Assembly (NCBI RefSeq): GCF_900108025.1
Contig: NZ_FNUS01000006.1
Location: forward strand, 62,001-126,000
Length of the DNA stretch: 64,000 nt
Source: Halpernia humi
GTDB taxonomy: Bacteria > Bacteroidota > Bacteroidia > Flavobacteriales > Weeksellaceae
Reading direction: 5' to 3'
Below are positions 16,569-50,671 of this stretch, in pieces. Each line of letters begins with the position of its first letter. The stretch's first letter is position 1. The notes below the pieces were generated by a model that saw only the letters and a program-made list of their open reading frames with translations, was not told where the DNA came from and ran no database searches. The translations under genes and the position numbers were made by a program.

Positions 16569-16673
16569 GGAGCAAGACGGTTTCAGTTTTTTCGAAGATT
16601 GTGCCGGCTTTCCACTATATATTTTTATTTTTTCTGACAAAAAATAAAAAAGATGTCGTTCCAATCCGGGCTA
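16569..16673. repeat. Hairpin repeat element, copy A
   Basis: This 105-bp element starts ggagcaag, contains gctttccact and a perfect 12-bp AT stem (16622-16633 paired with 16639-16650, loop ctgac), and ends with gatgtcgtt, ccaatc and gggcta. A second copy with the same order of conserved blocks lies at 50519-50628. It fills most of the 293 bases between the acidic protein gene and the DUF559 gene. Confidence 0.8.
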
Positions 16674-16782
16674 TCAAGTTCGGTTTTTTTCTTTTCAGAC
16701 GAGAAGTATTGTGTTCAAATAAAATTATTTATCTTTAAATAATAAATTATATAGTCTAATTTCCAGAAATTTTGCATCGAGA

Positions 16783-43291: not shown

Positions 43292-43423
43292 TTAAGATTT
43301 TAATAAATAATTTATAGGTTCGCAATTTAGCCCTATTCTGAAACTAAAAAAAATATTTTTCTTTTTCTAATTTTATTAGTTTAAAAAAGCCATTTCTGTG
43401 GGCAAAATTCATAAAAATTTCAG

Positions 43424-43431
43424 TATTTTTG
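43424..43431 (+). promoter_or_regulatory. -7 element TATTTTTG of the left tRNA-Arg copy
   Basis: Exact TAnnTTTG match in the left direct repeat, 25 bases before the tRNA-like sequence. The same element is at 43911-43918 before the intact tRNA. Confidence 0.6.
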
Positions 43432-43456
43432 CACTCGGTAATAATTTATAAATTTT

Positions 43457-43550
43457 GGCTGCGTAGTTCAACTGGATACCTGTCTGCCGACAGGCAGGGA
43501 ATATCAGATTTCGGCTCTGAGGGTTGGGGGTTCGAATCCTTTTTTAGTCA
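43457..43550 (+). pseudogene. Interrupted tRNA-Arg (TCG) copy
   Basis: The sequence matches the intact tRNA-Arg downstream from ggctgcg to ttcgaatcc, including the anticodon arm tcaga-tttcggc-tctga. It is broken in two ways: a 20-bp palindrome is inserted in the D-arm side (43479-43498), and the 3' acceptor strand reads ttttttagtca instead of cttcgcggtca, so it no longer pairs with ggctgcg. It is probably not a functional tRNA. Confidence 0.9.
43479..43498. repeat. 20-bp palindrome inserted in tRNA copy
   Basis: The insertion cctgtctgccgacaggcagg can fold into an 8-bp hairpin (cctgtctg with caggcagg, one G-T pair, loop ccga). Flanking bases actggata and gaatatcag are contiguous in the intact tRNA, so the insertion is clean, without target duplication. 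Confidence 0.9.
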
Positions 43551-43608
43551 TGTAAAGAGAGAATTTTTACGCTTTTATATCGAAATTTTTTAATAAATTT
43601 TATTTGAA

Positions 43609-43875
43609 ATGACTGAAGTGGAATATTTCGTTTATGTATTGAAAAGTGAAGTTGATGGAAGATTATATAAGGGGCAAACTTCAAATTTAGAGAAGAGATT
43701 AAAGGAGCACAATTCAGGCAAAACTAAATCAACGAAAGGTTTTATTCCATGGAGATTGGTGTATTTTGAAATTTTTGCAAGTAGAGAAGAAGCACTTCTT
43801 CGAGAAAAATATTTTAAAAGTGGTATAGGTCGAGAATTTTTAAAGGAGATGTTAAATAGAAATCAGTTGCAATAA
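43609..43875 (+). CDS. GIY-YIG domain nuclease (small, stand-alone)
   Basis: The product is an 88-residue protein that is almost only a GIY-YIG (URI/UvrC-type) domain: VEYFVYVLKSEVDGRLYKGQT gives the two strands with VYV and LYKG in place of GIY and YIG, then NLEKRLKEHNSGKTKSTKG with the conserved Arg and the H-N-S-G, PWRLVYFEIFASREEALLREKYFKSGIGREFLKE with the catalytic Glu. The S-T-K-G-x-x-P-W-x-L-V-Y-F pattern matches the group common in Bacteroidota, where such genes are often found near RNA genes, to my recollection. It lies between a broken and an intact tRNA-Arg, and 58 bases separate the broken copy from the ATG. Nuclease activity and homing are inferred. Confidence 0.9.
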   Translation: MTEVEYFVYVLKSEVDGRLYKGQTSNLEKRLKEHNSGKTKSTKGFIPWRLVYFEIFASREEALLREKYFKSGIGREFLKEMLNRNQLQ

Positions 43876-43890
43876 ATTAAATCTAAAAGT

Positions 43891-44006
43891 AAAATTCATA
43901 AATATTTCAGTATTTTTGCAACCGGTAATAATTTATAAATTTTGGCTGCGTAGTTCAACTGGATAGAATATCAGATTTCGGCTCTGAGGGTTGGGGGTTC
44001 GAATCC
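43891..44006. repeat. Direct repeat, right copy (with intact tRNA-Arg)
   Basis: Right-hand copy of 43404-43540. It contains the promoter and the intact tRNA-Arg, without the 20-bp palindrome. Confidence 0.9.
43911..43918 (+). promoter_or_regulatory. -7 element TATTTTTG of the intact tRNA-Arg
   Basis: Exact TAnnTTTG match, 25 bases upstream of the first base of the tRNA. The GIY-YIG gene ends 35 bases before it. Confidence 0.65.
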
Positions 44007-44017
44007 CTTCGCGGTCA
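43944..44017 (+). tRNA. tRNA-Arg (anticodon TCG)
   Basis: The 74 bases fold as a cloverleaf: acceptor ggctgcg with cgcggtc (two G-T pairs), D-arm, anticodon stem tcaga/tctga with loop tttcggc (anticodon TCG), and T-arm gggggttcgaatcccc-like with ttcgaat. The discriminator base is A; the CCA end is not encoded. It should read CGN arginine codons. A strong terminator follows. Confidence 0.92.
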
Positions 44018-44020
44018 CAA

Positions 44021-44058
44021 AAAAAGACAGGAAAGTCATTAGATTTTCCTGTCTTTTT
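44021..44058 (+). terminator. Terminator of the tRNA-Arg
   Basis: A 14-bp stem (aaaaagacaggaaa with tttcctgtcttttt) with a 10-base loop and trailing T residues lies directly after the tRNA. Because A- and T-runs flank both sides it may also stop the convergent marR transcript. Confidence 0.9.
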
Positions 44059-50518: not shown

Positions 50519-50628
50519 AGGAGCAAGAAAGTTTTCGCTTCTTTCAAATTTGGTCCTGCTTTCCACTCTATCTTTTTTGCCGCTCGCTTCGCTCGCGCCA
50601 AAAAAGGATGTCGTTTCAATCAGGGCTA
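50519..50628. repeat. Hairpin repeat element, copy B
   Basis: This 110-bp copy shares the ordered blocks ggagcaag, gctttccact, cttttttg-stem, aggatgtcgtt, caatc and gggcta with copy A at 16569-16673. The central hairpin differs: cttttttg with caaaaaag around a GC-rich loop (cgctcgcttcgctcgcg) instead of the AT stem of copy A. The order of blocks is conserved while the stem sequence differs, which indicates selection for structure. Confidence 0.8.
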
Positions 50629-50671
50629 AAAAAGAGGTTTGTTTTTTCTTTAGATTATTTTTAAAGTTATG

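Follow-up and report, generated by a model that had tools for sequence, protein, structure and literature searches.

Why should a gene for an 88-residue GIY-YIG nuclease lie between two copies of one tRNA gene, one of them decayed and the other intact? The question is raised by a locus in a window of 64,000 nucleotides, by which we mean the whole stretch of DNA that was analysed, where a decayed tRNA-Arg(TCG), the GIY-YIG gene and an intact tRNA-Arg(TCG) all lie on the same strand. The original prediction left two readings side by side: either an element driven by the nuclease had recombined at the tRNA gene and restored an intact copy, or the tRNA had been duplicated in tandem and one copy had lost its function. 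In our best reading, the region belongs to a large family of minimal mobile elements, about 0.3 kb in size, that sit inside tRNA genes. The parts of the locus are the following.

43403..43448, + strand: left copy of a TonB-receptor-like gene 3'-end remnant (97.8% identity to the end of the protein gene at locus L112 of genome G001)
43457..43550, + strand: displaced, decayed tRNA-Arg(TCG) copy, or psi-tRNA (Rfam 37.1 bits, acceptor 3' strand altered)
43479..43498, + strand: 20-bp insert in the D-loop (GGATA^GAATA), the hairpin-forming palindrome CCTGTCTGCCGACAGGCAGG
43609..43875, + strand: gene for the 88-residue GIY-YIG endonuclease (PF01541, E 4.5e-17)
43891..43935, + strand: second copy of the gene remnant, duplicated with the rebuilt tRNA (91.1% to L112)
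43944..44018, + strand: intact, rebuilt tRNA-Arg(TCG) (ARAGORN; Rfam tRNA, 59.0 bits)
44021..44058, + strand: inverted repeat with a T-run, presumed terminator of the intact tRNA (inverted-repeat scan, sequence)

The predicted direct repeat is real. ARAGORN calls the right tRNA-Arg(TCG) at 43944-44018 and no other tRNA in the window, leaving the left copy uncalled, and the Rfam tRNA score is 59.0 bits for the right copy vs 37.1 bits for the left. The insertion in the left D-loop, exactly 20 bp long, and the altered acceptor strand both stand, as does the GIY-YIG nature of the 88-residue gene between the copies. The insert CCTGTCTGCCGACAGGCAGG has no other match in the window at up to 3 mismatches and none in 100 shuffles; folded in isolation, it reaches -11.2 kcal/mol (z -3.06), whereas the psi-tRNA as a whole shows no excess of RNA stability (z -0.11), the hairpin alone standing out. 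Its palindrome class recurs in relatives, frequently at the identical site. No third tRNA-Arg(TCG)-like place was listed in the window genome at E <= 1e-10 (14 of 65 candidates scored), so that the rebuilt copy is probably the sole working one there. Rfam matches in the window are limited to tRNA and two Flavo-1 sRNAs (RF01705), the latter at 50548-50631 (-) and 16597-16676 (-).

The stretch upstream of both tRNA copies had been taken for a shared promoter. It is indeed common to both and contains TATTTTTG; read in frame, however, it gives KIHKNFSIFALGNNL followed by a stop, and it matches the 3' end of a protein gene that in G001 lies upstream of a single tRNA-Arg. The naming of this protein as a TonB-dependent receptor is weak, its PF00593 match (E 0.0046) falling short of the Pfam cut-off, and the stretch may also be used as a promoter. 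Since the restoring copy in the window takes in at least 53 bp upstream of the tRNA, copied tracts can exceed the minimum. That the 20-bp insert is a recurrent hairpin and the supposed promoter a gene remnant goes beyond what had been predicted.

The association of the gene with tRNA genes extends far outside the window. Its protein was matched in 55 of 320 genomes of the window's family (E <= 1e-8), and a profile of 13 relatives in 101 of 316 family genomes (E <= 1e-17). Family arrays were taken from the matches listed in the one or the other family search and from loci that the searches themselves had supplied; each had to contain a piece scoring 70 bits or more, and merging of identical sequence reduced 128 arrays to 111. 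An ARAGORN tRNA lies within 300 bp in 88 of these 111 unique arrays, against a rough chance rate of about 1% estimated from usual tRNA numbers. The nearest tRNA is always on the gene's strand and most often about 35-60 bp upstream of the GIY-YIG gene. A few ARAGORN calls inside arrays are psi-tRNAs, each such array also holding a proper tRNA, and 7 of the 23 arrays with no ARAGORN tRNA nearby are at contig or locus ends. Another 23 loci, with a best GIY piece below 70 bits, had been dropped before this count, among them L036 (a decayed gene beside tRNA-Arg) and L022 and L090 (stops); in none of the 23 is a recognised GIY match accompanied by a tRNA at 300 bp or less (Fisher p 2e-13), L036 having a tRNA-Arg upstream and no recognised GIY match. 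At least two GIY matches, fragments counted, occur in 40 of the 111 family arrays.

For a second set, named genomes were scanned with four window-like proteins, and the best 80 of at least 473 confirmed stretches were kept. These best 80 comprise several orders of Bacteroidota, five loci whose titles name Patescibacteria (L297, L314, L315, L322 and L324, three of them with a tRNA), one Neomarinimicrobiota and one "uncultured bacterium". A tRNA is found within 300 bp in 70 of the 80, the nearest again always on the same strand, and 4 of the 10 with no ARAGORN tRNA nearby are at contig or locus ends. The nearby tRNA is a tRNA-Arg in 59 of the 70, an excess to be expected because the query is Arg-like. 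The two sets overlap by 3 loci and together hold 191 arrays. The tie of this GIY-YIG subgroup to tRNA genes, which the original prediction had proposed to look for, is thus found in both sets. When 20 GIY loci with no called tRNA were searched with Rfam, no match reached the gathering scores; these 20 are therefore not at another catalogued RNA. No vehicle was found, a phage collection giving 5 weak matches only and a plasmid collection a single weak one. At L050, two tRNA-Met genes enclose an array of four copies of the nuclease gene, the majority interrupted by stops. L044 and L052, both at tRNA-Ala, have several direct copies of the tRNA 3' part plus terminator, at a 148-bp period in L044 and mostly with no nuclease gene between them in either locus.

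At the level of aligned genomes, comparison of occupied with empty sites shows an insertion with restoration of the whole tRNA in two genera. In Flavobacterium ranwuense (L250), compared with the empty sites of G370, G511 and G452 (L330-L332), a 315-bp insertion splits the D-loop of tRNA-Arg. Homology stops at GGATA (L250:1454), the hairpin begins at 1455 as the exact left boundary of the insertion, and homology picks up again 1 to 8 bases ahead of the rebuilt tRNA. The occupied locus reads GGATA, hairpin, 17 nt of tRNA, nuclease gene, new tRNA nt 1-22 and native nt 23 onward, and the empty loci have a single tRNA 5' part and no CCTGCCTGCC. Seven genomes were matched for this comparison, L330, L331 and L332 being empty; the insert is also absent from L334, a more diverged locus, the gene is ahead of the tRNA in L333, as it is in L252 from the scan of named genomes, and L329 (tRNA 3' part only) and L335 (no tRNA match) are uninformative. 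L329, from the Flavobacterium-like relative G635, has near 1480-1530 the tRNA-Arg 3' part with foreign DNA upstream, and looks as if a larger element had integrated at tRNA-Arg.

The second case is tRNA-fMet in genus g8, occupied in G191, G197 and G194 and empty in G193 and G196. Between G191 and the two empty genomes, flanks of 91.5-95.5% identity enclose an insertion of 339 bp (341 for G194). At the occupied site, the intact tRNA is followed by an element-borne terminator and the native terminator stands behind the psi-tRNA; the two differ. Relative to G193, 15 bp of the tRNA end are present twice, and the hairpin of G191 is at, or no more than 4 bp from, the native part. G192 and G195 have no DNA match to the nuclease gene there, and their right flanks are unalignable. 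Occupied and empty alleles at one conserved site are thus seen between species of a genus, not within species, and the empty relatives could in principle reflect precise loss.

The window genome itself has a second such locus. It contains six PF01541 matches, three of which make up two tandem GIY-YIG genes, one frameshifted, directly downstream of an intact tRNA-Met(CAT). Each of these genes is followed by a partial tRNA-Met with two hairpins of TCCGCC-N3-GGCGGA type and then a terminator, the hairpin being at, or at most 4 bp from, the native part. G001 has the same tRNA-Met with no insertion, left flanks aligning over 810 bp and right flanks over only 49 bp. At the tRNA-Arg locus, a syntenic empty site with the window's own flanks was not found among the genomes compared; G001, of the same genus, has one tRNA-Arg(TCG) and lacks the gene, so that the duplicated state is not common to all relatives. 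The empty sites anticipated for a mobile element do exist in Flavobacterium (tRNA-Arg) and g8 (tRNA-fMet), and they end at a partial tRNA plus hairpin.

How regular is this broken tRNA part? A partial cognate tRNA could be aligned beside 146 of the 191 arrays. If a hairpin is counted wherever GC-rich inverted arms of 6 bp or more match perfectly, 126 of the 146 psi regions have one, a figure slightly high because a few of the counted hairpins look like terminators, as compared with 193 of 2920 simple shuffles (6.6%) and 17 of 146 intact tRNAs; a perfect hairpin is missing in 20 of the 146. In the second set, the fragment display gave a fragment for 61 of the 80 loci and none for 7, the others having no suitable tRNA near. 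The hairpin class tracks the type of tRNA: CCTGCC..GGCAGG goes with most Arg tcg/acg/cct and with Phe, TCCCGA..TCGGGA with most Arg tct, Asn and Ala, TCTCGTC..GACGAGA with Asp, and TCCGCC..GGCGGA or TTCGCC..GGCGAA with Met. Stems change on both sides (TCCCGA/TCGGGA vs TTCCGA/TCGGAA), which hints that pairing may be conserved. In the Arg group, the D-loop site GGATA^GA is the commonest, then TCAGA^TTTCGG, and the T-loop site GGTTC^GA is also used. The psi side is broken by the hairpin, yet the rebuilt tRNA retains GGATA^GA. Random insertion into a dead tRNA was considered and dropped, as the same hairpin class and site recur.

The hairpins might nevertheless have a life of their own, as a mobile repeat mobilised by the GIY-YIG nuclease or otherwise, for which psi-tRNAs would be favoured landing sites; the palindrome would then not be an element end. 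We hold this to be doubtful, though it is the most serious competitor. Dispersal is apparent in the P1 palindrome, which at up to 3 mismatches is present in 18 of 316 genomes and at 24 places in G279, whereas the window genome has only 2 other P1-like sites. Of 5 carriers, 3 have P1 at places other than the element (3 of 6 if G307, which has a longer hairpin, is included) vs 13 of 311 other genomes, the carriers having been named after their loci were seen. The P1 scan also recovered a reversed control pattern, in three genomes with a single copy each. TCCCGA-N-TCGGGA averages 7.75 copies in 20 genomes with the Arg(tct) element vs 4.5 in 20 without (Mann-Whitney p 0.0002), in hand-picked genomes where "without" means absent from the 1e-17 profile matches, and the excess is about 3 copies with the element's own included. 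Both tests of genome-wide amplification of the palindromes gave weak results. Some psi-tRNAs contain at least two hairpins (L276, L295, L301, L304, L309), and at L020, outside any tRNA, inverted CCCTGTTAGATA copies flank a GIY gene and a short copy that lacks the gene is close by; both observations would also suit an independent repeat. Against it, the L250 hairpin coincides exactly with the left boundary of the insertion, and palindromes crowd around the gene: in the second set, a CCTG palindrome lies within 330 bp of 51 of the 80 genes, with 63 copies in 50,204 bp near genes vs 3 in 167,418 bp further out, a rate beside the nuclease 70 times that of the outer flanks.

Several palindromes were also encountered away from tRNA elements. 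The L020 gene (L020:1470-1760, 1940-1993) belongs to another GIY-YIG clade (CLNQQDATHREKYLKT) and interrupts a coding region, and the short gene-less palindrome with the same ends, about 190 bp downstream, resembles a non-autonomous copy. Dispersed CCTG-type palindromes occur in the genus g22 genomes G279 (at its 24 places), G283, G256 and G261, some sharing their context across species. G019 has three identical TCCCGATTTCATCGGGA palindromes 156-176 bp apart (G019:C1:501097-501445) and no nuclease match at 1e-17; these copies are perhaps gene-less units.

Regarding the protein, membership of the GIY-YIG superfamily is indicated by PF01541 together with an invariant Arg and Glu. Y9, Y20, G22, R30 and E66 are invariant in 13 aligned relatives, R30 and E66 being what we take to be the GIY-YIG catalytic pair. 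Two comparisons of coding sequences show purifying selection on the protein, with a dN/dS of 0.074 between the window gene and the Flavobacterium homologue in L249 and of 0.055 for L016/L017; L024/L021 give 0.78 from few changes, and window/L016 is saturated. Among solved structures, the closest relatives are UPF0213 proteins and the structure-specific nuclease SLX1, and PHROG gives a weak match to a homing endonuclease. On a FastTree phylogeny of 190 proteins, 155 of which bear one of ten tRNA-type labels, 16 changes of type are needed, compared with a mean of 56.4 and a minimum of 51 in 200 shuffles; nuclease lineages therefore keep to one kind of tRNA. Because the nearest rows to the window protein, among the matches listed (which may lack records very close to the window), are mostly Flavobacterium and G001 has no nuclease match at E <= 1e-17, transfer between families is suggested. 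In L042 (850-2451, minus) and L064, the GIY-YIG domain is in frame within an open frame of more than 500 residues, and in L042 it adjoins a type I restriction specificity domain (PF01420, E 3.2e-19).

The protein could alternatively serve in repair or defence, as an enzyme of the SLX1 or UPF0213 kind acting on a cruciform formed by the psi-tRNA hairpin, the repeats being a by-product rather than a means of transfer. The nearest solved structures are in keeping with such a function, cruciform extrusion being itself an assumption. We judge it unlikely, as the nuclease lineages track tRNA type, presence is patchy (101 of the 316 genomes at the 1e-17 threshold), the window protein has mostly Flavobacterium proteins around it on the tree, and PADLOC gives no match. 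In the second of the predicted readings, the tRNA would have been duplicated locally in tandem, a GIY-YIG gene captured by chance and one of the copies left to decay. This fits the window taken alone (a direct repeat with one decayed copy) and the commonness of tandem arrays, but it is very improbable, given that it fails to explain the link to tRNAs, G001, the precise empty sites, the element-borne terminator, the recurrent hairpins and an anatomy that is repeated at tRNAs of ten amino-acid types, in Bacteroidota as well as in some Patescibacteria.

We thus regard as probable a homing-type element that has neither intron nor integrase, restores the tRNA gene it targets and closes off the displaced part by means of a hairpin. 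Of the first predicted reading, the insertion and the rebuilding of the tRNA are supported; that a nuclease drives them we infer, like the role of the hairpin, as part of the best explanation. In this reading, the element consists of a single-domain GIY-YIG gene, a piece of tRNA and a hairpin, the last lying within another, broken piece of tRNA or at its margin. It would enter a tRNA gene, in the window's Arg subgroup mainly at D-loop GGATA^GA, so that the carried piece and the native remainder make a complete tRNA on one side and the displaced native part becomes, on the other, a psi-tRNA broken by the hairpin. Two arrangements are distinguished: in type A, that of the g8 tRNA-fMet, the intact tRNA is upstream and the element brings the 3' part together with a terminator; in type B, that of the window and of L250, the psi-tRNA is upstream and the element brings the 5' part. 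The nuclease would cut an unoccupied tRNA gene, and repair of the break from the element-bearing copy would amount to homing, the donor tRNA piece restoring the gene. Misaligned cutting and repair could generate the tandem arrays. Since the restored tRNA keeps the presumed cut site, self-cutting must be inefficient or tolerated.

As for the hairpin, it would destroy the cut site and/or stop the displaced part from folding as a tRNA, and spoiling that part both as a nuclease site and as a tRNA is its likely job. Alternatively, it might form an RNA structure that lowers translation of the nuclease, as the accessible part of one article describes for phage homing genes (PMC2988022), a role to which the type A hairpin, lying behind the gene, is a counterpoint. 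It might also be a substrate of the nuclease, an alternative that arises from the resemblance to SLX1. Two known arrangements were set aside: a group I intron with a homing endonuclease, as an uninterrupted tRNA stands beside the gene and Rfam finds no intron in the window, and an integrase-type tRNA element, as the 315- and 339-bp insertions are filled by the GIY-YIG gene and tRNA pieces.

If this homing-type element is real, essential tRNA genes in Bacteroidota and in some Patescibacteria house a mobile element of about 0.3 kb that is easy to miss, since its product resembles any GIY-YIG protein and its psi-tRNA is a fragment. It would offer a testable route for the duplication, breakage and movement between species of tRNA genes, a range of nuclease lineages each adapted to its own kind of tRNA gene, and an enzyme that may account for how short palindromes spread in bacteria. 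More tentatively, such elements could form a distinct class of mobile DNA, in which a tRNA piece, a hairpin and a nuclease of about 80-90 residues make up a complete moving unit of about 0.3 kb that targets conserved parts of tRNAs, heals the gene it enters and is also the source of the short GC-rich palindromes scattered through Bacteroidota and Patescibacteria genomes.

Integrative elements of tRNA sites carry part of a tRNA gene, restore the gene on integration and leave a partial copy at the far end. They are integrase-borne and kilobases long, whereas the insertions described here have no integrase, measure 315 and 339 bp and encode a GIY-YIG protein only. REP sequences with RAYT transposases are short palindromes tied to a small nuclease gene; in the present elements the enzyme fold is another, and the palindromes are low in copy number in the genomes counted and concentrated beside the gene.

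A closer likeness is to SegB and the free-standing GIY-YIG homing endonucleases of T-even phages, which are GIY-YIG enzymes, intron-less and encoded among tRNA genes, as far as the accessible portions of two articles describe them (PMC13096335; PMC2988022). According to the same portions, T4 segB is located at tRNA-Arg/tRNA-Ile (PMC2988022), the enzyme is tied to amplification and preferential inheritance of the tRNA segment (PMC13096335; PMC2988022), and the same puzzle of an uncut restored site is stated (PMC13096335). The SegB target is listed there as a tRNA intergenic region (PMC13096335; PMC2988022), whereas here the tRNA gene itself is split; unlike SegB, the element also has a restoring tRNA piece, bears a hairpin where the displaced part begins or ends, and resides in the chromosomes of Bacteroidota and Patescibacteria. 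In CPR bacteria, GIY-YIG genes are likewise described within structural RNA genes, carried by insertions that do not resemble group I or II introns, in the part of the source available (PMC11270868). Those insertions target rRNA, the text contains neither "tRNA" nor "palindrom", and its accessible part makes no mention of target restoration (PMC11270868). A 2006 survey of GIY-YIG proteins has tRNA, in its accessible part, only for a fused methyltransferase and in the references (PMC1564403). No description of an element with this anatomy was found among the literature matches listed, judged by titles and abstract starts, with subscription journals mostly uncovered, and no occurrence of the palindrome letters in the literature searched. 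The enzyme family and intron-less homing are known; a tRNA gene that is split and restored by a carried piece, with a hairpin end and with neither intron nor integrase, is described by none of the literature matches listed.
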